A stretch of 50,953 bases of DNA from Acidimicrobiia bacterium (GTDB lineage Bacteria > Actinomycetota > Acidimicrobiia > IMCC26256 > JAMXLJ01): contig DASRES010000050.1 of NCBI GenBank assembly GCA_035651955.1, positions 1-50,953 on the forward strand. The letters run 5' to 3'. The position numbers were made by a program, and so were the translations under genes. The notes beneath the pieces were generated by a model. The model did no database searches. It had not been told where the DNA came from and worked only from the letters and a program-made list of their open reading frames with translations. This document shows, one piece after another, positions 15,345 to 35,029 of this stretch; the stretch's first letter is position 1; the number at the start of each line of letters is the position of its first letter.

Positions 15345-16713
15345 CGCGGTCGGGCTCGACCCCGCACGCGCGCAGCTGATCCACGAGCCAGTCGTGCGGA
15401 GTGCGCGCCGACGCACGCTCGCACAGCGTCTTGGCGCGCGCCCGCCGCTCGACGGCGTCCATGTCGAGCGCGGTGTGCAAGGCGGCCGCGGTCTGCTCGA
15501 GGTCGTACGGGTGCACGCGCACGGCCGCGTCACCGAGCTCCTCGTACGCACCCGCCTCTCGCGACAGGCACAGGACGCCGTCGCGGCGGTTGAGGATGGG
15601 ACCTTCCTTCGCGACGAGGTTGAGCCCGTCCTTGATCGGGTTGACGAGCAGCACGTCCGAGCGCTGGAGACCGGCCACGCTGCGCGGGAAGTCGTCGCGG
15701 CTGTTCACCACGACGGGTGTCCAGTCCCGACGCGCCCACCGCTCGTTCACGCGCGCGGCCGCCTGCTCGACCTCCTGCGCGTACGCGAGGTACTCGGCGA
15801 GCCCCTCGCGTGACGGGTACAGGTAGGCCACGAACACGACTCGCTCGTGCCATTCGGCGTGCGTCTCGAGGAACCGGTCGTACGCGAGGAACCCACGCAC
15901 GATGTTCTTCGAGAGCTCCATCCGGTCGGTGCGCAGCACGACGCGCCGGTCGCCGACGAGCTCGTCGAGCGCGTCGCGTGCCGCGGCCGTCTCGTCGGAC
16001 TCGGCGACCTCGGCGAGCGCCTCGCGGTCCGGACCGAACGACGCCGCGAACGCGGGCGCGTCGATGCCCAGGAGCTCCGTCACCGTCGAGCGGTACTGGG
16101 CGACCCAGCGAGCGGTGTGGAAGCCGGCGGGCCCGCCCGCCATCGACGCGCAGATCTCGTCCGCGACGTCGTCGGGCAGCACGCGCATCATGCTCGGACC
16201 GCTGAACGGCGTGTGCGTGAAGTGCCCGACGTGGAGGTCCGGGCGCACCCGGCGGATCATCCCGGGCGTCAGCGCGAGCTGGTAGTCCTGCACGAGGACG
16301 ACCTCACCGTCCCCGGCGCGTGCCGTCACCGCGTCGGCGAACACCTGGTTCACGGTTCGGTACGCCTCCCAGGCCTCCCGGAAGCGGTGGTCGAAGCGCG
16401 GTCGCCGCGGCAGGTCGAAGAGCACGTGGTGGAGGAACCACAGGACGCCGTTCGACACGACGTCGTAGTGCATGCGGTGCAGCGCGGGGTCGATGTCGAG
16501 GAGCGTCAGGTCGATGTCGTCGTCGCGCGCCGCGCCGGCGTGCACGGCGGCGCGGTCGTCGTCGGTCATCGCGGCCGCGACCCAGACGTGACCTTGGCGC
16601 GCGAGCAGCGGCGTCAACGCGCTCACGACGCCCCCCGCGCCGCGACGCGTCTCGAACGTGCCGTCGTCGCGCCGCGCGAACGAGTACGGACCCCGGTGCG
16701 AGACGACGATCAT
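15337..16713 (-). CDS. otsA: Trehalose-6-phosphate synthase OtsA (GT20, actinobacterial subtype)
   Basis: 458 residues from ATG 16713. GT20 fold: IVVSHRGPYSF at the N-terminus and RGAGGVVSAL as the glycine loop. VLVQDYQLALTPGMIRRVRPDL, FTHTPFSGPSMM, AGFHTARWVAQY and RTDRMELSKNIVRGF (in place of the canonical RLDYSKGI) complete the core, with the nucleotide-sugar region LVNPIKDGLNLVAKEGP. It joins a glucosyl donor to glucose 6-phosphate. Streptomyces OtsA is reported to prefer GDP-glucose; whether this enzyme does is unknown. It lies 25 bp downstream of the treT-like gene on the same strand. Longer N-terminal extensions have no family similarity. Confidence 0.9.
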   Translation of the reverse strand: MIVVSHRGPYSFARRDDGTFETRRGAGGVVSALTPLLARQGHVWVAAAMTDDDRAAVHAGAARDDDIDLTLLDIDPALHRMHYDVVSNGVLWFLHHVLFDLPRRPRFDHRFREAWEAYRTVNQVFADAVTARAGDGEVVLVQDYQLALTPGMIRRVRPDLHVGHFTHTPFSGPSMMRVLPDDVADEICASMAGGPAGFHTARWVAQYRSTVTELLGIDAPAFAASFGPDREALAEVAESDETAAARDALDELVGDRRVVLRTDRMELSKNIVRGFLAYDRFLETHAEWHERVVFVAYLYPSREGLAEYLAYAQEVEQAAARVNERWARRDWTPVVVNSRDDFPRSVAGLQRSDVLLVNPIKDGLNLVAKEGPILNRRDGVLCLSREAGAYEELGDAAVRVHPYDLEQTAAALHTALDMDAVERRARAKTLCERASARTPHDWLVDQLRACGVEPDRVN

Positions 16714-16738
16714 GCGCGGGCGCCGGTACGGGGGCCGT

Positions 16739-17989
16739 TCACGACCCGAGGTCCACGAACAGCCGGAGCCAGTCCTCGAGCTCGCGTGTCGACAGGAAGT
16801 TCGCACGCACGTGCTCGCGCCCGCTCTCGCCCATCGTGTCCGCAGTTGCCGGATCGGCGAGGAGCTCGATCGTGCGGCGCGCGCACTCGTCGACCGAGTC
16901 CACGAGGTAGCCGTCGACGCCGTCGCGCACCTGCAGCACGATCCCGCCCGCGCGGCCGCCGATCACCGGCCGGCCCTTCCAGAGGCCTTCGCTGACGGTG
17001 AGCCCGAAGCCTTCGCGCAACGACTTCTGCAGGACCACGTCGGCGGCGCGTTGGAACGCGTTGATCTGCACGTTGCCCACCTGCTGGATGTTCGACAGCA
17101 GGTGGATGTCGCGGTCGCCGCCGCGCGCGTCCTCGGTCTGCTCCCACACGCGGAAGCCCTCGGGATCGTCGGTCGCCATCGAACCCGCGAGGACGAGCTG
17201 CGCGTCCGGCACCTTCTCGCGTACGACGCGGAACGCCTCGATCACGCCGACCGGGTCCTTCCACGGGTCGAATCGGCTCACCTGGCAGACGAACGGACGT
17301 CGCGTATCGACGCCGTACTGCTTGCAGATCTCGGTGACGAACGGGGTCGGCAGGTCGAGGTTCTTGACCGACAGCGGATCGATGCACGGCGGTGCCTGCA
17401 CGATGCGGTCCATCTCGAGCGACGTCGGCACGAACTCCGGCATCGTCCACACCGACGCGTCGTACCGTTCCACGTGCGGACGGAAGAACTCCCACACCGC
17501 GTCGTTCGCGTCCGTGAGGTCGATGTGGCAGCGCCAGATCCAGCGCGTGTCGGGCCGGTCGATCGCGGTCCCGTGCAGGAAGCTCAGCATCGCCGCCGGT
17601 TGCGGGTCGTGCACGACGATGAAGTCGTACTCGCCCTCGAGCAGCAGCGCGTTGTCGAGCACCTTCTCGAGGTAGGTGCGGGCCATCTCCGGCGTCCACT
17701 CGACGTCCGAGCCCTGCAGCGCGTTGTGCACCTGCTTCGTGACACCGAAGAAGTCGTCGCTGCCGTGCATCACCTGCCACTCGGCCTCGAGCCCGGCGCT
17801 CCGCAGCAACGGGACGTGCGTGGCGAGCAGCTCGGCGACGCCACCGCCGTACGCCGTCGCGTTGAGATGCAGCACGCGTGCACCCCGCAGCGGCTCGGCG
17901 AGCGCACGGATCCGTTCGATCGTGTCGCTTCCGGCGATCTCGACATAGTCGTCGAGGTCCTTCTCGAGCAGCGGGACGCGTTCGAGCAC
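16739..17989 (-). CDS. treT: Trehalose synthase/glycosyltransferase of the TreT type (GT4)
   Basis: 416 residues from GTG 17989 (GGAAAG nearby upstream). GT-B fold of family GT4: LHLNATAYGGGVAELLATHVPLLRSAG at the N-terminus, FIVVHDPQPAAML, RWIWRCHIDLTDAN, then the donor-binding half FVCQVSRFDPWKDPVGVIEAF and the E-x7-E type region SLREGFGLTVSEGLWKGRPVIGG. This matches TreT-type trehalose glycosyltransferring synthases, which make trehalose from glucose and NDP-glucose, or run in reverse. It is divergent from glycerate kinase with only 48 bp between. A TTG at 18025 is an alternative start. Longer minus-strand frames reaching 19360 are shadows of glycerate kinase. Confidence 0.85.
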   Translation of the reverse strand: MLERVPLLEKDLDDYVEIAGSDTIERIRALAEPLRGARVLHLNATAYGGGVAELLATHVPLLRSAGLEAEWQVMHGSDDFFGVTKQVHNALQGSDVEWTPEMARTYLEKVLDNALLLEGEYDFIVVHDPQPAAMLSFLHGTAIDRPDTRWIWRCHIDLTDANDAVWEFFRPHVERYDASVWTMPEFVPTSLEMDRIVQAPPCIDPLSVKNLDLPTPFVTEICKQYGVDTRRPFVCQVSRFDPWKDPVGVIEAFRVVREKVPDAQLVLAGSMATDDPEGFRVWEQTEDARGGDRDIHLLSNIQQVGNVQINAFQRAADVVLQKSLREGFGLTVSEGLWKGRPVIGGRAGGIVLQVRDGVDGYLVDSVDECARRTIELLADPATADTMGESGREHVRANFLSTRELEDWLRLFVDLGS

Positions 17990-18037
17990 GGGCGCGCTTT
18001 CCGGTTGGGGCGGGAACGCGGTCAATCTATCGGGATC

Positions 18038-19075
18038 ATGAGCGTCGCCCTTGCCTGTCCCGACAAGTTCCGCGGGACCCTCACCGCGTCCGAGGCGGCC
18101 GATCGGATCGCGGCGGGTCTCCGGACGGCCGGCTTCGACGAGGTGCGCGCGCTGCCGCTCGCCGACGGCGGCGAGGGCACGCTCGACACGTTGCTCGCCG
18201 CCCGCGGTGGCTCGCGTCGCCCGGCCCGGGTCACGGGACCGCTCGGCGAGCCCGTCGACGCGGAGTGGGGCCTCCTCCCCGACGGCACCGCGGTCGTGGA
18301 GATGGCGAACGCGAGCGGGCTCGCGCGCGTCGACGGTCGCAACGACCCGTTGCGCGCGACGACACGCGGCACCGGCGAGCTCGTCGCGGCCGCGGCGCGC
18401 GCTGGCGCGCGCCGGATCATCGTCGGTGTCGGTGGCAGCGCGACGACCGACGGTGGGCTCGGCGCGGTCGACGCGCTCGGATGGTCGCTCGCGGGACTCG
18501 ACGTCGTCGTCGCGTGCGACGTGCACACGCGCTTCGTCGACGCGGCGCGTGTGTTCGGCCCGCAGAAGGGGGCGACCGACGCGCAGGTCGCGCTCTTGAC
18601 GCGCCGGTTGCAGAGCGTCGCGCAGCAGTACCTCGACCGGACGGCATTCGACGTGCACGGTGTCGAGGGTGGCGGTGCAGCAGGCGGGCTGGCCGGTGGC
18701 CTCGCCGCGATCGGTGCCCGTCTCGAACCCGGCTTCGACGTCGTCGCGCGCGTCGCGGGCTTCGAGGACGCGGTTGCGGACGCCGACGCCGTCGTCACCG
18801 GGGAGGGAAAGCTCGACCCGACGAGCTTCGACGGCAAGGTCGTCGGCGGCGTGCTCGAGTGGGCGGGCGAGCTCGGCGTCGAGCACCGCGCGGTGATCGC
18901 CGGTCAGGTGACGCCCGAGGCGCGTGACGAGGCGTCCGTCCTCGGCGACGTGCAGGTGCTCGCGCTCACCGACCGCGTCTGGCAGGCGGGCGAGGCGTTC
19001 CAGCGCGCCGGCACGCTCGTCGAGGAGGCCGCGATCGAGGCCGGCAAGGACGCGCTGACGAAGATGCGGCACTGA
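18038..19075 (+). CDS. glxK: Glycerate kinase (GlxK/GarK type)
   Basis: 345 residues from ATG 18038. Family motifs: ACPDKFRGTLTASEAADRIAAGLR, LPLADGGEGTLDTLLAA, VEMANASGL, RATTRGTGELV, IIVGVGGSATTDGG, VACDVHTRFVDAARVFGPQKGAT, GAAGGLAGGLAAIGARLEPGFD and VVTGEGKLDPTSFDGKVV. This is the class II glycerate 2-kinase family, phosphorylating D-glycerate to 2-phosphoglycerate. Its neighbours make glucosylglycerate and trehalose, so it may recover glycerate released when glucosylglycerate is hydrolysed (inference). The final codons and stop are the left arm of a perfect 17-bp inverted repeat. Confidence 0.94.
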   Translation: MSVALACPDKFRGTLTASEAADRIAAGLRTAGFDEVRALPLADGGEGTLDTLLAARGGSRRPARVTGPLGEPVDAEWGLLPDGTAVVEMANASGLARVDGRNDPLRATTRGTGELVAAAARAGARRIIVGVGGSATTDGGLGAVDALGWSLAGLDVVVACDVHTRFVDAARVFGPQKGATDAQVALLTRRLQSVAQQYLDRTAFDVHGVEGGGAAGGLAGGLAAIGARLEPGFDVVARVAGFEDAVADADAVVTGEGKLDPTSFDGKVVGGVLEWAGELGVEHRAVIAGQVTPEARDEASVLGDVQVLALTDRVWQAGEAFQRAGTLVEEAAIEAGKDALTKMRH

Positions 19076-19108
19076 CCGTCGCTTTGCGTACGTCAGTGCC
19101 GCATCTTC
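19060..19108. terminator. Perfect 17-bp inverted repeat spanning the glycerate kinase stop codon
   Basis: The arms 19060-19076 (starting GAAGATGCGGC) and 19092-19108 are exact complements, separated by a 15-base loop. The left arm holds the last codons (Lys-Met-Arg-His) and stop of glycerate kinase. The right arm lies just downstream of the convergent HAD gene stop (19116), so transcripts from both directions would form the hairpin. No U-tract follows. Confidence 0.7.
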
Positions 19109-19115
19109 ACCCTCG

Positions 19116-19919
19116 TCACCCGTCGAGGAGCGTGTCGACGGCCTCGGCGAAGCCGGCCCCGTGGCCCTGGCGCGTGATCGTCGCGTTCGGCACGCGCGCC
19201 ACCACGTCGGCGAACGGCGGGTCCTTCTCGATCGCGTTGCGGACGACGAAGCAGCGCGCGACGACGTCGTGACACGCGAGGTCGGCGGCCGCGTCACCGA
19301 CGACGGCACACTCGGCCGCCGCGATCCCGCGCTCCTTCCGGTCCGCGAGGACGGCGTCACGCTTCGAGATCCCGCGCGGTGCGAGGTGGTAGACGCGCAC
19401 CTTCGAGACGGACGGCAGCGAGTCGTACGTCCGCGGGATGATCCCGTTCTCGACGATCTCGACCCACCCGTACCCGTCGCGGTCGAGGCGCGCGTGCGCG
19501 TCGTCGACGTCGAGCTCGCCGCGCACCATCAGCGAGACGAGCCGGCCGTCGTTCCACGGATCGTGCGGCTCCAGCCGACCTGGCGCGCGAGCGACGAGCT
19601 CGCCGACCAACGGATAGAGCGCGTCGACCGGTGATCCGTCACCTCGGTACGCGCCGACGTCGACCACACGCCGCGTGCCGCGCTCGTACACGCGCACGCC
19701 GCCGAGCTCCGCGATCCATGCCGCGAGACCGAGCAGCCGGCCGAGCTCGTCGACGCGCGCGACGTCACGGCCGCTCAACGCGACGATCTCCAAGCCGCTC
19801 GCACGAGCGCGCAACAGCGCGTCGACCGCGACGCGTGTCGGCGCGCCCGACCCGTCGAGCAACAGGTTGCCTCCAGGACCGACGAGCGTGCCGTCGACGT
19901 CGGTGTAGAGGACGCGCAC
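19116..19919 (-). CDS. HAD-IIB phosphatase, candidate glucosyl-3-phosphoglycerate (or mannosyl-) phosphatase
   Basis: 267 residues. HAD motif I is LYTDVDGTLVG, motif II IVALSGRD, motif III lysine in SKRDAVLADRKERG, and motif IV CAVVGDAAADLACHDVVA. A Cof/MPGP-type cap lies between (EPHDPWNDGRLVSLMVRG). It is 3 bp downstream of gpgS on the same strand, essentially a coupled pair. GpgS makes glucosyl-3-phosphoglycerate, so this enzyme is the natural candidate for the next dephosphorylation step to glucosylglycerate. Mycobacterial GpgP is a histidine-phosphatase-type protein instead, whereas thermophile MPG phosphatases are HAD enzymes; this one is HAD. Function is inferred from context. Confidence 0.75.
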   Translation of the reverse strand: MRVLYTDVDGTLVGPGGNLLLDGSGAPTRVAVDALLRARASGLEIVALSGRDVARVDELGRLLGLAAWIAELGGVRVYERGTRRVVDVGAYRGDGSPVDALYPLVGELVARAPGRLEPHDPWNDGRLVSLMVRGELDVDDAHARLDRDGYGWVEIVENGIIPRTYDSLPSVSKVRVYHLAPRGISKRDAVLADRKERGIAAAECAVVGDAAADLACHDVVARCFVVRNAIEKDPPFADVVARVPNATITRQGHGAGFAEAVDTLLDG

Positions 19920-20957: not shown

Positions 20958-20958
20958 C

Positions 20959-21062
20959 GTTCATCAAGAGCGGCTGAGGGACAGGCCCGACGACGCCGCG
21001 GCAACCAGCACCGATGTGCGAGGAGCACTGACGTGCCAGGTGCCAATGCCTGAACGATGAGC
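20959..21062 (+). promoter_or_regulatory. SAM-I (S-box) type riboswitch
   Basis: P1 pairs GTTCATC (20959-20965) with GATGAGC (21056-21062). Between them the conserved S-box core appears in order: ATCAAGAG, GAGGGA, GGCCC, then GCCGCGGCAACC, and later GTGCCAGGTGCCAATGCC, which is the P4/J region GGTGCYAAW. The linear order and the 104-nt length fit SAM-I/SAM-IV clan aptamers. It should sense S-adenosylmethionine and turn off the downstream thrC-like and moaD-like genes. The class call was made by eye without a covariance model. Confidence 0.88.
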
Positions 21063-21078
21063 CGCCGAAGAGCGATCC

Positions 21079-21163
21079 GGCCGCCGATCGGCCTCCGCTC
21101 GAGGCGCTCACAGAGCGCGTCGAGGCGAGCGGGCACGGGGCCCGCTCCACGGAGGACGAGGAG
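21079..21163 (+). other. Riboswitch expression platform (competing hairpins near the ribosome-binding site)
   Basis: This leader contains several short stems: GGCCG/CGGCC (21079-21083 with 21089-21093), GCCTC/GAGGC (21091-21095 with 21101-21105), GCGCTC/GAGCGC (21104-21109 with 21113-21118), and GAGCGGG/CCCGCTC (21127-21133 with 21141-21147). CCTCCG (21092-21097) could also pair with CGGAGG (21150-21155) close to the Shine-Dalgarno GAGGAG (21158-21163). No U-tract is present, so translational control is more likely than termination. Confidence 0.4.
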
Positions 21164-21171
21164 CAACGGCG

Positions 21172-22413
21172 ATGCCCCACGTGGCCGGACTTCGGTGTCG
21201 TGAATGCGGACGTGAGTACGACGTCGCGCCCACCTACACCTGCGAGTGGTGCTTCGGGCCGCTCGAGGTCGTGTACGACTACGCGTCGATCAGGAAGACG
21301 GTGACCCGCGAGTCGATCGCGGCCGGGCCCGCGAGCATCTGGCGCTACCAGGACCTGTTGCCCGTCGAGCGTGCGGCGGCCGTCGACCTCGGTGCCGGGT
21401 TCTCGCCGCTGATCCGCGCGGACCGGCTCGCGGCCGAGCTCGGTCTGAGCGAGGTCTGGGTCAAGAACGACACCGTCAACCCGACGAACTCATTCAAGGA
21501 CCGCGTCACCGAGGTCGCGCTGTCGAAGGCGCTCGACTTCGGGTTCAAGACGGCCGCGTGCGCGTCGACCGGGAACCTCGCCAACGCGGTCGCCGCGCAC
21601 GCCGCGCGCGCCGGGCTGCACAGCTTCGTGTTCATCCCGTCGAACCTCGAGGCCGGCAAGGTCGTGACGACCGGCATCTACGGCGGGAACCTCGTCGCGA
21701 TCGACGGGAACTACGACGACGTCAACCGTCTCTGCGCCGAGCTCGCCGGCACGTACCGCTGGGCGTTCGTGAACGTCAACATGCGGCCGTTCTACGCCGA
21801 GGGCTCGAAGACGCTCGCGTTCGAGACGGCCGAGCAGCTCGGCTGGGAGACGCCCGACCACGTCGTCGTGCCGGTCGCGAGCGGCTCGCTCCTCACGAAG
21901 ATCCACAAGGGGTTCCACGAGCTGCACGAGGTCGGACTGCTCGACGCCGAGCCGAACGTGCGCGTCTCGGGCGCGCAGGCGCTCGGATGCTCACCGGTCG
22001 CGACCGCGTGGATCGAGGCGAGCGACACGATCCGTCCCGTGAAGCCGGACACGATCGCGAAGTCGCTCGCGATCGGGAACCCGGCCGACGGCTACTTCGC
22101 GCTCGACGCGGTGCGCAGCACCGGCGGCGGGCTCGCGGCCGTCACCGACGACGAGGTCGTCGAGGGCATCCGGTTGCTCGCGCGGACCGAGGGGATCTTC
22201 GCCGAGACCGCGGGCGGCGTGACGATCGCGAGCCTCAGGCGTCTCGCGCAGGATGGCGTGGTCCGCGCCGACGAGCGCGTCGTGGTGTACATCACGGGCA
22301 TCGGGTTGAAGACGATCGAGGCGGTCGCGCCGCGCGTGGCACCGACGGCGACGATCGCGCCGACGCTCGATGCGTTCCACGACGTGTTCACGCCGGACAC
22401 CATCGAGGACTGA
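21172..22413 (+). CDS. thrC: Threonine-synthase-like PLP enzyme under SAM riboswitch control (candidate homocysteine-forming enzyme)
   Basis: 413 residues from ATG 21172, with GAGGAG 8 bases upstream. An N-terminal zinc-ribbon-like motif (C9, C12, C24, C27) precedes a fold-type II PLP domain: VKNDTVNPTNSFKDR with Schiff-base Lys109, CASTGNLANAVAAHAARAG, and PVASGSLLTK as phosphate-binding glycine/serine loop. By homology it is a threonine synthase using O-phosphohomoserine. Two contextual facts point elsewhere: expression is behind a SAM riboswitch, a methionine-pathway signal, and a sulfur-carrier gene follows 14 bp later. It may therefore replace the phosphate of O-phosphohomoserine with sulfur delivered by the carrier, giving homocysteine. 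That reaction is an inference; ordinary threonine synthesis remains possible. Confidence 0.85.
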   Translation: MPHVAGLRCRECGREYDVAPTYTCEWCFGPLEVVYDYASIRKTVTRESIAAGPASIWRYQDLLPVERAAAVDLGAGFSPLIRADRLAAELGLSEVWVKNDTVNPTNSFKDRVTEVALSKALDFGFKTAACASTGNLANAVAAHAARAGLHSFVFIPSNLEAGKVVTTGIYGGNLVAIDGNYDDVNRLCAELAGTYRWAFVNVNMRPFYAEGSKTLAFETAEQLGWETPDHVVVPVASGSLLTKIHKGFHELHEVGLLDAEPNVRVSGAQALGCSPVATAWIEASDTIRPVKPDTIAKSLAIGNPADGYFALDAVRSTGGGLAAVTDDEVVEGIRLLARTEGIFAETAGGVTIASLRRLAQDGVVRADERVVVYITGIGLKTIEAVAPRVAPTATIAPTLDAFHDVFTPDTIED

Positions 22414-22427
22414 GAGGAAGCGAATCC

Positions 22428-22703
22428 ATGCCCGTGTCCGTCCGCATCCCGACGCAGCTGCGCGAGCTGTCCGGCGGCAGGTCCGAGGTCGAGGTCGACG
22501 GCGGCAACGTCGCCGAGGTGCTCGCCGGGCTCGAGAAGCTGCACCCGGGCTTCGCGAACCGACTCCACGACGACGACGGCTCGTTGCGCCGCTTCGTCAA
22601 CGTGTTCGTCGCCGACGAGGACATCCGCTTCCTGCAGGGTCTCGACACCGCGGTCAAGGACGGCGACACCGTCAGCATCGTCCCCGCCGTCGCCGGCGGC
22701 TGA
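22428..22703 (+). CDS. MoaD/ThiS-family sulfur carrier protein
   Basis: 91 residues from ATG 22428 with GAGAGGAA upstream. Beta-grasp ubiquitin-like fold: VSVRIPTQLRELSGGRSEVEV, VAEVLAGLEKLHPGFANRLHDD, LRRFVNVFVADEDIRFLQGLDTAVKDGDTVSIVPAVAGG. It ends in the Gly-Gly tail (90-91) that is adenylated and converted to a thiocarboxylate in CysO, ThiS and MoaD. The layout, including the FVN.....IR segment, is closest to CysO-type carriers. No E1-like activating enzyme, Mec+ hydrolase or molybdopterin genes are nearby. It is in one operon with the PLP enzyme behind the SAM riboswitch, so its sulfur is probably meant for that enzyme. Confidence 0.9.
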   Translation: MPVSVRIPTQLRELSGGRSEVEVDGGNVAEVLAGLEKLHPGFANRLHDDDGSLRRFVNVFVADEDIRFLQGLDTAVKDGDTVSIVPAVAGG

Positions 22704-24292: not shown

Positions 24293-26836
<2,544 letters not shown>

Positions 26837-27983: not shown

Positions 27984-28775
27984 ATGCAGCCGGTCTACCC
28001 GTCCGTCGGCTGGGGGGTCCTCCACCTGCTCTACCGGGTCGACCGGGCGCGCGCCGAGGCCGAGCCGCAGGCCGCGAAGCGGGTGCTCGACGCGGTCGCG
28101 TCGCTCGAGGCCGACGATCACCAGGCGCTCGTGTTCGCGGTGCTCGGTCACAAGGCCGACGTGGGGGTGATGGCCCTCGGGCCTGACCTCGCACGGCTGC
28201 AGGCGTTCCAGCAGGAGCTGCTGCGCGCGCCGCTCGTGCCCGCGTACTCGTACGTCTCGCTCACGGAGCTGTCCGAGTACTCCTCGAGCGAGCAGGAGGA
28301 ACGGGCGCGGCTCGCGCATGACGAGGGTCTCGCCGGTGACGAGCTCGACGCGCGCCTCGCGACCTGGCGCGAGCGGATGGCGCACTACGCGGAGAACCGG
28401 CTGCACCCGCGCTTGCCGCGCAAGAACCTGATCTGCTTCTACCCGATGTCGAAGCGGCGCGACGGCGACGTCAACTGGTACGAGCTGCCGTTCGACGAGC
28501 GGAAGCGGCTCATGGGCGGGCACGCGCGCGTCGGCCGCGCGTACGCCGGTCGCGTGTTGCAGCTCATCACCGGTTCCGTCGGGCTCGACGACTGGGAGTG
28601 GGGTGTGACGCTGCTGGCCGACGATCCCGTCGCGCTGAAGGAGATCGTGTACGAGATGCGCTTCGACCCGGTCTCCGCGCGCTACGCCGACTTCGGGCCC
28701 TTCTACACGGGCCTGCTCCTCGACCCGGCCGATGCCCTCGCGCGTGTCGGCCTGGACGTCGACGGAGGGGCGTGA
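27984..28775 (+). CDS. hemQ: HemQ, coproheme decarboxylase (chlorite-dismutase family)
   Basis: 263 residues. Clear actinobacterial HemQ sequence: NRLHPRLPRKNLICFYPMSKRRDGDVNWYELPF holds the catalytic Tyr153 within YPMSKRR. RLMGGHARVGRAYAGRVLQLITGSVGLDDWEWGV contains the proximal heme histidine region (His180 candidate), followed by LKEIVYEMRFDPVSARYADFGPFYTG. It converts coproheme to heme b using peroxide, the last step of the coproporphyrin-dependent heme route of Gram-positives. The distal Arg of true chlorite dismutases cannot be confirmed, and HemQ is the usual role in this phylum. Followed 2 bp later by a NIL-domain gene. Confidence 0.94.
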   Translation: MQPVYPSVGWGVLHLLYRVDRARAEAEPQAAKRVLDAVASLEADDHQALVFAVLGHKADVGVMALGPDLARLQAFQQELLRAPLVPAYSYVSLTELSEYSSSEQEERARLAHDEGLAGDELDARLATWRERMAHYAENRLHPRLPRKNLICFYPMSKRRDGDVNWYELPFDERKRLMGGHARVGRAYAGRVLQLITGSVGLDDWEWGVTLLADDPVALKEIVYEMRFDPVSARYADFGPFYTGLLLDPADALARVGLDVDGGA

Positions 28776-28777
28776 CG

Positions 28778-29020
28778 ATGGCGAGCGAGCGACTGTTCGT
28801 GTCGTTCCCCGAGTCGCTCGTCGAGCGGCCGATGATCTACGAGATCGTGAAGTCCTACGACGTCGTCCCGAACATCCGGCGCGCCAACGTCGAGGCGCAC
28901 TCGGGCTGGGTGATCCTGCAGCTCACCGGCGAGCAGGACCAGCTCGACGCCGCGGTCGCGTACCTCGAAGGGGTCGGCTGCCAGGTGAACCGCATGGAAG
29001 GCGACATCGTCGCCGGTTGA
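28778..29020 (+). CDS. NIL-domain small protein
   Basis: 80 residues from ATG 28778, which has GGAGGGG 8 bases upstream; this sets the start over the in-frame GTG at 28772. The sequence RLFVSFPESLVERPMIYEIVKSYDVVPNIRRANVEAHSGWVILQLTGEQDQLDAAVAYLEGVGCQVNRME fits the NIL domain, known from the C-terminus of the methionine importer ATPase MetN and stand-alone in NIL-ferredoxin proteins. Only the NIL domain is present; there is no ferredoxin cluster. It is likely co-expressed with hemQ. Ligand unknown. Confidence 0.82.
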   Translation: MASERLFVSFPESLVERPMIYEIVKSYDVVPNIRRANVEAHSGWVILQLTGEQDQLDAAVAYLEGVGCQVNRMEGDIVAG

Positions 29021-29977: not shown

Positions 29978-32900
29978 ATGCGGAGCGAGCGCGAACGGAC
30001 GGACACCACGGGCTCCACGGGCGGGGCGAAGCCCGCGCGCGGCCCCGTCGCGTCCGCAGCGCCGCGCGCGGCGGACGAGGCGCCGGGCGCCGCGCTCGCG
30101 GCCGAGCACCGACCCGCGACGGCGGTGCTCTCGGCGGACGGGCTCGTCGTCTCGTGCGACGACGAGTGGCTCTCGCTCGCCGCCGCGCCCGCCGCCGAGG
30201 TCCTCGGCCGCCTCCCGTTCGAGTCGGCCTGCTTCGCGCGGGACCGTGACCGGCTCCACCGGGCCGTCGACGGCGTGGTCCGCGAGCGCGCGTCGGCGAG
30301 CGTCGCGCACCGCGTCGTGCGTGACGACGACACGGTCGCGTGGTTGCACACCTGGATCGTCCCCGTGCCGGGTGACGCGCGCGGGATCCTCGCGGTCAGC
30401 GAGGAGACGACCGACCGCGTCGCGCTCGTGCAGCTCGGCGACCAGCTGCGCGCCGCGCTCGACGAGACGACGGATCACGTGATCCTCGAGACCGGCGACG
30501 GCCGCGTCCTCTACGTGAACCGCGCCGCGCGCCGGGCGTACGGCGTCGCCGACGACGCCGACGTCGCGACCCTCGACGTCCGCGCGATCTACCCGCCTGC
30601 GATGCGCGAGCGCTTCGCCGAAGACGTCGGCCCCACGCTCGCACGCGAGGGGATCTGGCGTGACGACGTCACGATGCCGACCGCGGACGGGGACACCATC
30701 CCGCTGTCCGTCGTGTGCGTCGCTCGCCGCGCGCCCGACGGCGCGATCGAGCACATCGCGACGCTCGGGCGTGACATCCGCGACCTCAAGGACGCCGAGG
30801 CGCGGCTGACCGCGTCGGCCGAGTGGTTCCAGTCGCTCGTCCAGCATTCGAACGACATCATCAGCGTCAGTGACGCCCACGGCCGGTGCCGGTACGTGAG
30901 CCCGTCGATCGAGCCGCTGCTCGGCTACCCGCCCGAGCTCCCCTTCGTCGAGGACGGGCTCGACCTCGTGCACCCGGAGGACCGGGAGTCGGTCGCGGCG
31001 ATGCAGCGCGAGCTGCGGGCCCGGCCGGGCGCCACGATCACGCACGAGTACCGCTTCCTCGGCTCCGACGGGCGGTACCGCCACATCCAGTCGCACGTGA
31101 CGAACCTTCTCGACGACCCGCGCGTGAACGGCATCGTCGCGAACTCCCGTGACGTCACCGACGCCCGTCGCGCGCAGGAGGCCTTGCAGCGCGGTGAGGA
31201 GCGGCTGCAGGCGCTGCTGCAGAACTCGACCGACTTCGTGCTCGTGTGGGACGAGGACGGGAACATCACCTACGTCACGCCGTCGGTCCGCCGGTTCCTG
31301 GGCGCCGCGCTCGACAGGCACACACCCGGTCAGGCACTCGACATCACGCACGAGGACGACCGCGCTCGCGTCGACGCCGTCCTCGCACGTGTCCGCGCGA
31401 CGCCCGGCGCGGAGGAGGCGATGCGGTTCCGGGGCCGACGCGCCGACGGCGAGTACCGCTGGCTCGAGACCGTCGTCACGAACCTGACGGAAGACCTGGC
31501 GGTGGGCGGCATCGTCCTCAACGCGCGCGACGTGACCGCGCAGGTCGCCGCCGAGCACGCGCTGCACGAGTCGCACGACGCGTTGCGGCGTTCGAACTCG
31601 ACGATGACGGCCATCCTCGAGAACGCGCCGCTCGCGATCTACGCGATCGATCGCGACTGCAACGTCATCCTGTGGAATCGCGCGTGCGAGACGTTGTTCG
31701 GGATCCCGGCCGCGGACGCGCTCGGGCGCTACCTGCCGATGATCAACGACGACGAGGTGGAGCGCTTCGAGCAGTTGTGCGCGCACGTCGCCGAGGGTCG
31801 CGTGTTCAACGGGATCGAGTCGCGCACGGTTCGGCCCGACGGACGCCCGGTCGACATCAGCCTGTCCGTCGCGCCGATGGTCGGACCCAACGGCGCCATC
31901 ACGGGGATGCTGCTGCTGTGCGCCGACATCACCGACCGCAAGCAGACGGAGCGCGCGCTGCTCGCGAACGAGGCGATGTTCCGCGGCGTCGTCCAGCACG
32001 CGTCGGACCTGATCCTCATCGTCGGCCGCGACGGCCTGATCCGGTACGCGAGCCCGGCGGCCGAGTCCGTCTTCGGGTACGCGCCCGACGAAGCGATCGG
32101 TCTCGACCCGCTGTCGTTCGTGCACCCCGACGACGTCGAGCGCGTCGCGCTCGAGCTCGCCGAGTCGCTCGTCGAGGCGGGGCCGCGCACGCCGTCGGAG
32201 TTCCGCGTCCGGCACGCCGACGGCTCCTACCGAACCGTGCAGTCGGTCGGGCACAACCTGATGGACGACCCCGCGGTCGAGGCGCTCATCGTCACGGCAC
32301 GGGACATCACCGAGCAGCGCAGCTCCGAGATCGCGCTGCGCCGGAGCGAGGAGCGGTTCCGCGCGCTCGTCCAGAACCTGTCCGAGATGATCACGGTGAT
32401 CGGATCCGACGGTGAGCTCGTCTACTCGAGCCCGTCGGCCGTGGAGTTCTTCGGGAACACCGGGGTCCACCTGGAGGACAGGGCGTCCGTCATCCATCCC
32501 GACGACGTCGAGCGCGTGACCGAGGCGTTCGTGCACCGCGTCGCGAACCCGACGAGCGACCGCGCTCCGATGCGCTATCGGGTGAGACGGGCGGACGGGG
32601 AGTGGCGGCACGTCGAGTCCGTGGTCCTCGACCTCAGCGAGGATCCTGCCGTCGGCGGCGTCGTCGTCACGACGCGCGACGTCACCGAGCAGCGCGAGGC
32701 GCAGGAGCGCATCGCCGCGAGCGAGGAGCGCTATCGCGCGATCGTCGAGGACCAGACCGAGTTCATCGCGCGTGTCGACCGCCACGGGCGCTTCACGTTC
32801 GTGAACGACGCCTACGCGCGCTACATGGGCAGCACGCCCGAGGAGCTCCTCGGAGGGCGGCTGGCCGACGTCCTCGGCGAGGAGGGCGCCGAGCGCGCGA

Positions 32901-35029
32901 GCGAGCACGTGAGCAGGATCAGCGCCGACGGCGGCACGCTCGCGCTCGAACGCCAGGTCACGATGCCTGACGGCGCGACGCGCTGGCAGGCGTGGACGAC
33001 GCGCGCCATCGTCGACGAAGCCGGCCGCGTCGTCGAGTACCAGTCGATCGGCCGCGACGTGACCGAGCGCAAGAAGGCCGAGGCTCGGCTCGCGGAGCAG
33101 GCGAAGATCCTGGAGCTGGTCGCGGAGGGGCGTCCGCTCGCGCAGACGCTGGAAGCCGTCGCGCGCGCCGTCGAGGCCGGGCTGGGCGGCGCACGATGCT
33201 CGATCGTCCTGCTCGAGGAGGGAAGCCGCCGCCTGCACTGCATCGCCGCACCCAGCATGCCGGACGGATTCGCCGCGGACGTCGAGCGCATCGACGTCGG
33301 TGACGACGTCGCGTCCGGCCTCGTCTCGATGGGCGACGTCGTGATCGTCGAGGACCTGGTCGCCGACGAGCGTTGGGGCGAGCGGTACGGCCGGATCGCG
33401 CGCGGGCTCGGCTTCCGCGGCGTCTGGTCGACCCCCGTGCGTTCGGCGTCGGAGCGGCGAGCGCCCCGGAAGGCCGCGCCGGGTATCCCGGCGCCGAGCG
33501 AGAGAGATCCGACGGCATCGAGTGCGTCCGTCCTCGGTGCGCTCACCGTGTACTTCGACGACGTGCGCACGCCGCTTCCGGAGGACCGTCAGCTCGTCGA
33601 TCAGATGGTGCACCTGACCGCGATCGCGATCGAGCGCAAGGAGTTCGAGTCGCAGCTCGCGCACCAGGCCCATCACGACCCGCTCACCGGGCTGCCGAAC
33701 CGCGTCCTGTTCCTGGAGTTCCTCGACGTCGCGCTCGCGCGCTCGCGCCGGCGCGACACGACGGTCGGTGTCCTGTTCCTCGACCTCGACCGCTTCAAGT
33801 ACGTGAACGACAGCTTCGGGCACGACGCCGGCGACGAGCTCCTCACGTCGCTCGCGCGCCGGCTCCGCAGCGTCGTGCGTCCGGGCGACACGATCGCCCG
33901 GTTCGGCGGCGACGAGTTCGTCGTGCTGTGCGAGGACCTCACGCCCGGTCTCGCGCGCGAGCAGGCCGTCGACGTCGCGGAGCGGCTCATCGCCGCGATC
34001 CAGCAGCCGTTCTCGCGCCAGGGTGAGTCGCAGTTCCTGAGCACGAGCATCGGCATCGCGCTCTCGACCGGTGAGGACGACCGGCCCGAGGCGTTGCTCC
34101 GCGACGCCGACGCCGCGATGTACCGCGCCAAGGAACGCGGCAAGGGCCGGTGGGAGCTGTTCGACGAGGCGATGCGCGCGACGGCGCTCCGGCGCGTCGA
34201 GACCGAGAACGCGCTGCACCGTGCCGTCGAGCGCAACGAGTTCCGCGTCTTCTACCAGCCCGTGATGTCGCTGCGGGACGGCACGTGCGTCGGGGCCGAG
34301 GCCCTGGTGCGCTGGCAACACCCGGATCGAGGGCTGGTGTCGCCGGCGGAGTTCATCACGCTGGCCGAGGAGACCGGTCTCGTCGTGCCCCTCGGACGGT
34401 GGGTGCTCGAGGAGGCGTGCCGGCAGACCGCGCACTGGCACCGCGTGCGCGGCGGGGGACCGTTCACCGTCTCGGTGAACCTCTCGGCCCGTCAGCTCGC
34501 GCGCGCGGAGCTCGTCGGCGAGGTCGCGGCCGCGCTCGACGCGTCCGGCGTCGCGCCGGAGTGCATCTCGCTCGAGATCACCGAGAGCGTGCTCATGGAG
34601 GACGTCGAGGCGTCACTCGGTGCGATCAAGGCGTTGCGCGCGCTCGGCGTGCGGCTCGGCATCGACGACTTCGGCACCGGCTACTCGTCACTCGGCTACC
34701 TGAAGCGCCTGCCCGTCGACACCGTGAAGGTCGACCAGTCGTTCGTCGACGGTCTGGGCACCGACGCCGAGGACTCCGCGATCGTCGCCGCGGTCGTCAA
34801 CCTCGGTCACACGCTGACGTTGAACGTCGTCGCGGAGGGCGTCGAGACGGAGGAGCAGCTCGCGGAGCTCGTCGCGCTCGGATGCGACAGCGCGCAGGGC
34901 TTCCTCTTCGCGCCTGCGTTGCCACCGACGGAGTTCGAGGCGCTGCTCGCGCCGGGTGCGCTGTGGCGCCCGACCCGTGGTGCGCTCCCCGGTCCGTTCG
35001 GCGAGGCACACGAGCGCCGCGCCGGCTAA
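29978..35029 (+). CDS. Multi-PAS GAF-GGDEF-EAL c-di-GMP signalling protein
   Basis: 1683 residues, no clear TM helix, so probably cytosolic. About eight PAS/PAC units sit in a row, starting near residues 35, 157, 283, 409, 542, 667, 793 and 918 (spacing about 126). A GAF domain (about 1042-1225) follows. The GGDEF domain has an intact RFGGDEF (from about 1310) with the inhibitory-site RPGD five residues before it. The EAL domain has EALVRW (near 1441), VNLSARQL, LEITES, DDFGTGYSSL, VKVDQSFV, VAEGVET and AQGFLF, so all catalytic and metal residues are present. Both synthesis and hydrolysis of c-di-GMP appear possible. It is transcribed alone. A 1535-residue frame on the other strand is a shadow. 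Confidence 0.95.
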   Translation: MRSERERTDTTGSTGGAKPARGPVASAAPRAADEAPGAALAAEHRPATAVLSADGLVVSCDDEWLSLAAAPAAEVLGRLPFESACFARDRDRLHRAVDGVVRERASASVAHRVVRDDDTVAWLHTWIVPVPGDARGILAVSEETTDRVALVQLGDQLRAALDETTDHVILETGDGRVLYVNRAARRAYGVADDADVATLDVRAIYPPAMRERFAEDVGPTLAREGIWRDDVTMPTADGDTIPLSVVCVARRAPDGAIEHIATLGRDIRDLKDAEARLTASAEWFQSLVQHSNDIISVSDAHGRCRYVSPSIEPLLGYPPELPFVEDGLDLVHPEDRESVAAMQRELRARPGATITHEYRFLGSDGRYRHIQSHVTNLLDDPRVNGIVANSRDVTDARRAQEALQRGEERLQALLQNSTDFVLVWDEDGNITYVTPSVRRFLGAALDRHTPGQALDITHEDDRARVDAVLARVRATPGAEEAMRFRGRRADGEYRWLETVVTNLTEDLAVGGIVLNARDVTAQVAAEHALHESHDALRRSNSTMTAILENAPLAIYAIDRDCNVILWNRACETLFGIPAADALGRYLPMINDDEVERFEQLCAHVAEGRVFNGIESRTVRPDGRPVDISLSVAPMVGPNGAITGMLLLCADITDRKQTERALLANEAMFRGVVQHASDLILIVGRDGLIRYASPAAESVFGYAPDEAIGLDPLSFVHPDDVERVALELAESLVEAGPRTPSEFRVRHADGSYRTVQSVGHNLMDDPAVEALIVTARDITEQRSSEIALRRSEERFRALVQNLSEMITVIGSDGELVYSSPSAVEFFGNTGVHLEDRASVIHPDDVERVTEAFVHRVANPTSDRAPMRYRVRRADGEWRHVESVVLDLSEDPAVGGVVVTTRDVTEQREAQERIAASEERYRAIVEDQTEFIARVDRHGRFTFVNDAYARYMGSTPEELLGGRLADVLGEEGAERASEHVSRISADGGTLALERQVTMPDGATRWQAWTTRAIVDEAGRVVEYQSIGRDVTERKKAEARLAEQAKILELVAEGRPLAQTLEAVARAVEAGLGGARCSIVLLEEGSRRLHCIAAPSMPDGFAADVERIDVGDDVASGLVSMGDVVIVEDLVADERWGERYGRIARGLGFRGVWSTPVRSASERRAPRKAAPGIPAPSERDPTASSASVLGALTVYFDDVRTPLPEDRQLVDQMVHLTAIAIERKEFESQLAHQAHHDPLTGLPNRVLFLEFLDVALARSRRRDTTVGVLFLDLDRFKYVNDSFGHDAGDELLTSLARRLRSVVRPGDTIARFGGDEFVVLCEDLTPGLAREQAVDVAERLIAAIQQPFSRQGESQFLSTSIGIALSTGEDDRPEALLRDADAAMYRAKERGKGRWELFDEAMRATALRRVETENALHRAVERNEFRVFYQPVMSLRDGTCVGAEALVRWQHPDRGLVSPAEFITLAEETGLVVPLGRWVLEEACRQTAHWHRVRGGGPFTVSVNLSARQLARAELVGEVAAALDASGVAPECISLEITESVLMEDVEASLGAIKALRALGVRLGIDDFGTGYSSLGYLKRLPVDTVKVDQSFVDGLGTDAEDSAIVAAVVNLGHTLTLNVVAEGVETEEQLAELVALGCDSAQGFLFAPALPPTEFEALLAPGALWRPTRGALPGPFGEAHERRAG

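Follow-up and report, generated by a model that had tools for sequence, protein, structure and literature searches.

A SAM-I riboswitch upstream of a threonine-synthase-like gene and a sulfur-carrier gene in an Acidimicrobiia-related genome: a candidate system for carrier-dependent homocysteine synthesis

The metM–metO locus and its leader

The window, by which we mean the whole 50,953-nucleotide stretch of DNA that was analysed, carries an S-box aptamer, a gene for a threonine-synthase-like PLP enzyme, here called metM, and a gene for a small sulfur-carrier protein, metO, in that order (Table 1). The original prediction, made from the sequence alone, had placed an S-box aptamer at 20959–21062 and had proposed in advance a check with the RF00162 covariance model; the model accepted the aptamer well above its gathering score (69.1 versus 44.4 bits), with each end within one base of the prediction. 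Aligned to RF00162, the aptamer retains little of the model's P4 arm and carries an insertion in P3. This was the only SAM-I site found by covariance search of the genome, a draft assembly. The aptamer lies 108 nt from metM, and an intrinsic terminator was rejected as the switch because none was found between the two (21064–21171). A purine-rich ribosome-binding region is located at about 21151–21163, and part of it is predicted to pair with CCUCC at 21092–21096. The predicted pairing, which fits a probable translational control of metM–metO, is identical with and without the aptamer P1 helix, and the folding prediction shows no SAM-dependent change.

Table 1. Features of the metM–metO region and the separate ThrC of the same genome.
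Feature	Position	Strand	Remarks
SAM-I (S-box) riboswitch aptamer	20958–21063	+	RF00162, 69.1 bits, gathering 44.4, E 3.7e-14
Probable expression platform	21064–21171	+	sequence between aptamer and metM
metM, threonine-synthase-like PLP enzyme, proposed O-phosphohomoserine-dependent homocysteine synthase	21172–22413	+	413 aa; TIGR00260, PALP
metO, ThiS/MoaD/CysO-like sulfur-carrier protein ending Gly-Gly	22428–22703	+	91 aa; ThiS 62 bits
groEL (ORF)	24341–26836	+	Cpn60 match, downstream of metO
Chlorite-dismutase/HemQ-like gene	27984–28775		directly before the NIL gene
NIL-domain protein	28778–29020	+	80 aa; relative of the NIL protein adjoining metM–metO elsewhere; candidate accessory part, weak link here
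Separate ThrC	contig C30: 6188–7381		normal ThrC by profile

MetM matched the NCBIfam thrC profile TIGR00260 at 291.2 bits, above the cut-off of 167.1, and Pfam PALP at 242 bits, and solved threonine synthases match it by sequence. Its PLP lysine, K109, lies in an SFKDR motif and is a lysine in all 108 aligned relatives, in agreement with the earlier assignment of a ThrC-like enzyme with a Schiff-base Lys109. Ahead of the domain, MetM carries an N-terminal Cys4 motif (C9, C12, C24 and C27).

The predicted MoaD/ThiS-type protein with a terminal Gly-Gly was also recovered: metO follows metM after 14 bp, and its product matches ThiS and ends in VAGG. The best solved-structure matches of MetO were 4n6e chain B, named a ThiS/MoaD family protein, and 3dwg chain C, which we take to be M. 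tuberculosis CysO. In a redundant set of 105 MetO rows, the C-terminus was exactly Gly-Gly in 66, as in the window MetO, which needs no trimming, and extended 1–9 residues beyond it in 39 (e.g. L093, L085 and L116). HcyS, which has residues after Gly-Gly like many MetO relatives, and QbsE are carriers trimmed by a protease before activation; by analogy, the extended MetO relatives would need such trimming.

The groEL gene of the neighbourhood that the original prediction had mentioned for Streptomyces is present downstream, as a Cpn60 match in the ORF listed in Table 1. Elsewhere in the window, two long overlapping ORFs within 16658–19360 are over-extended; this region holds trehalose-synthase-type glycosyltransferase domains on the − strand (about 16810–17870) and, beginning near position 18050 of the + strand, a glycerate-kinase-like domain. 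The very long ORF at 29978–35029, with many PAS, GAF, GGDEF and EAL domains, is likely a multi-sensor cyclic-di-GMP enzyme. Several of the scanned ORFs gave no match in the Pfam scan.

Methionine, threonine and sulfur genes in the genome and its order

The host assembly is a 4.1-Mb draft, 96% complete. Among named relatives the closest at metM, with 86% identity, is an Acidimicrobiia MAG. A search of the host assembly recovered eight PALP-family genes. The separate ThrC on contig C30 is adjoined by homoserine dehydrogenase and by an ApgM-like protein, and metM as the genome's only threonine synthase was rejected on this basis. The ApgM-like protein resembles TIGR02535 ('proposed homoserine kinase') at 411 bits, below the cut-off of 446; the GapMind authors regard the function of one member of this family as uncertain (PMC7311316). 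MetY and MetX are adjacent on contig C41, metO being on contig C50, and both exceed their profile cut-offs (MetY, NF005872, 753 versus 703 bits; MetX, NF047917, 526 versus 475 bits). The surroundings of metX/metY on C41 gave no Rfam match up to E 0.5. The original prediction had considered that a genome with no threonine synthase other than MetM and with a complete conventional homocysteine pathway would speak against it: MetX and MetY are indeed present elsewhere in the genome, but so is a separate ThrC. By sequence, this strain thus has two candidate homocysteine routes, only one of which is under SAM-I, and MetM need not be the sole homocysteine route here.

Of three ThiF matches in the genome, one, on contig C35, was above the cut-off, and visual inspection of its reading frame indicates a rhodanese-like N-terminal part as well, so that machinery for carrier activation is, as far as sequence can tell, present. 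This rhodanese–ThiF protein, the homoserine dehydrogenase and the relative of the proposed homoserine kinase family are candidate supply genes. A further cluster, on contig C13, brings together a JAB-protease-like gene, a CysO-like carrier gene and a CysM-like gene; the carrier is 54% identical to MetO.

We surveyed 58 genomes of the host's order, accepting metM at E up to 1e-60, MetX up to 1e-40 and the ThrC orthologue up to 1e-80, with stricter filters for the SAM-I scan; these are draft genomes, in which missing genes may be assembly gaps. metM was found in 54 of the 58, SAM-I likewise in 54 (not all of them the same genomes), MetX in 32 and MetA in 3. The MetX counts are by E-value: a curated 500-bit cut-off was unreached in order and control genomes alike, and full-length hits lay at about 1e-125. 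HcyBio/DUF39 had no match in any of the 58 genomes, and the DUF39 route was rejected as a homocysteine supply. In 52 of the 54 metM genomes a SAM-I site preceded the metM match on its own strand, at 15–428 nt (median 100), the largest distance (G023) being measured to a match starting only at residue 262. In the other two, metM begins at the contig start (G004) or the match lacks its first 112 residues (G052), the latter gene probably being cut by the contig end (compare L113, on a 4776-base contig). In G035 metM is in two pieces, the first with SAM-I. As a separate observation, 21 of the order's 73 SAM-I sites were not found next to metM (e.g. G050:C72); some of these lie near each other, as at G008:C1 1907403–1907503 and 1909018–1909118.

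A ThrC orthologue was present in 52 of the 58 genomes and coexisted with metM in 48 of the 54 metM genomes; in the remaining six, two of them 95% complete, it was not found at E 1e-80. These counts bear on a bifunctional enzyme, that is, a threonine synthase that also makes homocysteine when the MetO thiocarboxylate is available. The six genomes agree with such an enzyme, as does a Microcystis homologue (51.6% identical to the S. albulus protein, without riboswitch) for which the available text reports threonine synthase and threonine deaminase activity (PMC12172450). The 48 genomes with a separate ThrC, together with the nature of the regulator found, a SAM riboswitch, nevertheless make bifunctionality unlikely.

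Neither MetX nor MetA was found in 23 of the 54 metM genomes, nine of which are at least 90% complete, including G027, from the same genus, and the 100%-complete G041. To these 23 genomes the MetM reading would give a homocysteine route; a cystathionine γ-synthase acting on O-phosphohomoserine, as in plants, may be another. The metM match was absent from four genomes of the order. One (G017) has MetX, and a SAM-I site at a contig edge. The other three (G024, G025 and G026, family f12) are the only MetA holders among the 58, and no metM, SAM-I or MetX was seen in them, a pattern that suggests pathway replacement, perhaps as one event since they form one lineage.

Relationship of MetM to ThrC and loci in other phyla

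For comparison with ThrC we aligned 108 of 111 MetM rows (length at least 395, no stops), which include near-duplicates from two overlapping collections, and all 30 ThrC rows, which come from the host's order only. The window MetM was at least 54.7% identical to the MetM rows, 40% to the best ThrC row and about 37% to the genome's own ThrC. Thirty-four columns separate the two sets (one residue in at least 95% of MetM rows, another in at least 85% of ThrC rows). The counterparts of Thermus S155, R160 and N188, presumably the substrate-phosphate ligands of threonine synthase, are N203, Y208 and S237 in MetM by counting along the alignment, the N203 pairing being less sure owing to a one-residue gap near it in some ThrC alignments. 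MetM rows had N203 in 107 of 108 cases and Y208 and S237 in all 108, and all 30 ThrC rows had S, R and N there. R205 and K243 are invariant in MetM and its own. None of the 30 ThrC rows has the Cys4 motif; in MetM rows its cysteines are present at positions 9, 12 and 24 in 108 of 108 and at 27 in 104. A quick tree of 51 rows separated MetM from 16 ThrC rows by a branch with SH-aLRT 100; in it a Natrinema thrC occupied its own long branch between MetM and ThrC, and the Nonomuraea enzyme grouped within MetM on a long branch. ThrC keeps the released phosphate to assist water addition, and we infer that MetM, by holding it less tightly, gives the carrier tail access to the substrate.

An ordinary second threonine synthase, next to the carrier gene by chance alone, would agree with the TIGR00260 score (291 versus 167 bits), but it sits poorly with the separate clade and altered residues, the SAM-I upstream in 52 of 54 genomes, the conserved carrier neighbour and the separate ThrC beside homoserine dehydrogenase on C30, and we regard it as very improbable. 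Examples of MetM from Nonomuraea, Nitrospira and Chloroflexota also scored above the TIGR00260 cut-off. Because the thrC profile scores MetM in this way, it can seem as if nothing accounted for methionine prototrophy in such lineages.

A scan of named genomes returned 422 relatives, of which 80 were kept, from actinobacteria including Acidimicrobiia, Chloroflexota, Nitrospirota, Verrucomicrobiota and one record named Acidobacteria. At these 80 loci metO followed metM within 150 bp in 55, at 285–685 bp in 18 and farther in 3; it was not found in one (L117), and the contig ends in the other 3. This tight linkage across phyla, and the existence of a separate CysO-like carrier beside its own CysM-like gene, argue against an O-phosphohomoserine sulfhydrylase that works with free cellular sulfide while MetO serves another pathway. 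Such an enzyme, which we consider extremely improbable, would be in line with the unidentified peak near methionine that, in the accessible text, the Microcystis enzyme gave with Na2S as the sulfur source mimicking MetM (PMC12172450). The same text states that metM homologues occur in cyanobacteria and that in Microcystis a gene similar to S. albulus metO adjoins one of them. A plasmid search for an annotated Streptomyces-like copy yielded none; its sole matches were Nonomuraea, for which no features are listed, and a haloarchaeal thrC.

The Rfam scan covered 51 of the 80 named loci and the Nonomuraea gerenzanensis locus L170, the other 29 being left out for reasons of size and close similarity. 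SAM-I preceded metM at 8 of 19 Chloroflexota loci (including L133), 4 of 4 Verrucomicrobiota loci, L084, L086 and L130, and at 14 of 15 further actinobacterial loci, the one miss (L079) having 8 nt of upstream DNA. At L170, in an actinomycete, SAM-I, metM and metO are all present in this order. The scan found no SAM-I at any of the 10 Nitrospirota loci or at the other 11 of the 19 Chloroflexota loci, three of these 21 misses having less than 1 kb of upstream DNA (L107, 80 nt; L101, 409 nt; L114, 924 nt). Since the order of aptamer, enzyme and carrier recurs through the host's order and in other phyla, their association is more than a chance match.

A NIL protein of about 80 aa adjoined metM–metO in 45 of the 50 loci outside Acidimicrobiia (L083–L133 without L113), many of which are close relatives (Nitrospira). 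Its gene lay between metM and metO in 19 of the 45 and less than 250 bp after metO in 26, and such adjoining genes occurred in Chloroflexota, Nitrospirota and 3 of 4 Verrucomicrobiota loci. PF09383 was confirmed in seven sampled NIL proteins outside the window. The window NIL protein is 41% identical to a Chloroflexota one and lies six kilobases downstream of metM–metO. Among the 30 Acidimicrobiia-type named loci, NIL was found, within flanks of up to 4 kb, in L082 only. L082 and 20 order genomes, 21 cases in all, each have metO and groEL after metM in the same orientation; within the available DNA, which is short in several, HemQ was present in 13 and NIL in 7. The DUF39 pathway requires a NIL/ferredoxin protein to make homocysteine (PMC5764234), and by this analogy the NIL association fits a homocysteine role; the NIL protein is a possible third component of the MetM/MetO system.

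Proposed pathway and comparison with known systems

From the observed parts, order and conservation of the locus, the separate ThrC and the candidate supply genes, we consider it highly probable that metM–metO is a SAM-repressed operon for carrier-dependent homocysteine synthesis from O-phosphohomoserine. The homocysteine reaction, sulfur transfer and switching would, by homology, be those of the Streptomyces system of Hasebe et al. 2024. An E1-type adenylyltransferase would activate the C-terminal Gly-Gly of MetO, and MetO would then be thiocarboxylated. MetM would bind O-phosphohomoserine as a PLP aldimine, and the phosphate would be eliminated as in threonine synthase; the MetO thiocarboxylate would then add at C-γ, whereas in threonine synthase water adds at C-β, and release from the carrier would yield homocysteine. 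High SAM would lead the S-box riboswitch to switch the operon off, probably at translation. The comparative evidence supports this proposed MetM/MetO mechanism well.

According to Price et al. 2018, Acidimicrobium ferrooxidans, a member of the class Acidimicrobiia, has no traditional, DUF39 or thiocarboxylate route and belonged to the organisms whose way of making homocysteine was then unknown (PMC5764234); MetM offers a possible answer. More tentatively, and with somewhat less than even confidence, MetM/MetO may be the principal, or even the sole, homocysteine synthase in much of the Acidimicrobiia, fill the A. ferrooxidans gap and, in a wider three-part form with the NIL protein, be tied to the NIL protein of the DUF39 pathway. 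Neither metM in Acidimicrobiia nor a metM–NIL association appeared among the matches listed in a literature search that took in few subscription papers.

MetM resembles threonine synthase in fold, PLP lysine and likely substrate; unlike ThrC, it forms its own clade, with changed phosphate-site positions, a Cys4 motif, SAM-I control and a carrier neighbour. The pairing of a ThiS-fold carrier with a fold-type II PLP enzyme recalls CysO/CysM of actinobacteria, but MetM is ThrC-like rather than CysM-like, and the genome has its separate JAB–cysO–cysM-like cluster on C13. In Wolinella, as reportedly described by Krishnamoorthy and Begley in 2011, the PLP partner of the carrier is of MetY type and the carrier gene lies beside it. 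The use of a carrier thiocarboxylate as the sulfur source, as proposed here, is shared with the methionine pathway of Wolinella succinogenes, as far as the available parts of the sources describe it (PMC5764234, PMC6225789). Unlike in HcyS/MetY, the PLP partner here is of ThrC type, and metY lies with metX on C41, away from metO on C50. In S. albulus, metO is said to be adjacent to metM, and the MetO thiocarboxylate to donate the sulfur, in the work of Hasebe et al. in 2024.

The S. albulus system is the closest parallel: it shares the ThrC-like enzyme, the sulfur carrier, the upstream SAM riboswitch and O-phosphohomoserine, the last proposed here from the genes (PMC12172450, in part). The original prediction had suspected that a related Streptomyces pathway might already be reported, and the available text does describe Streptomyces MetM as a homocysteine synthase converting O-phosphohomoserine (Hasebe et al. 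2024, PMC12172450). The methionine link that the prediction drew from the riboswitch holds for the aptamer, which was confirmed here, but is not new, as S. albulus metM has a SAM riboswitch upstream (PMC12172450, same text). Enzyme, carrier and riboswitch are thus already known from Streptomyces. The present system differs in its Acidimicrobiia-related host, whose genome also has MetX and MetY, and our additions are the close SAM-I–metM linkage and the MetX/MetA pattern in the order, and the NIL neighbour elsewhere.
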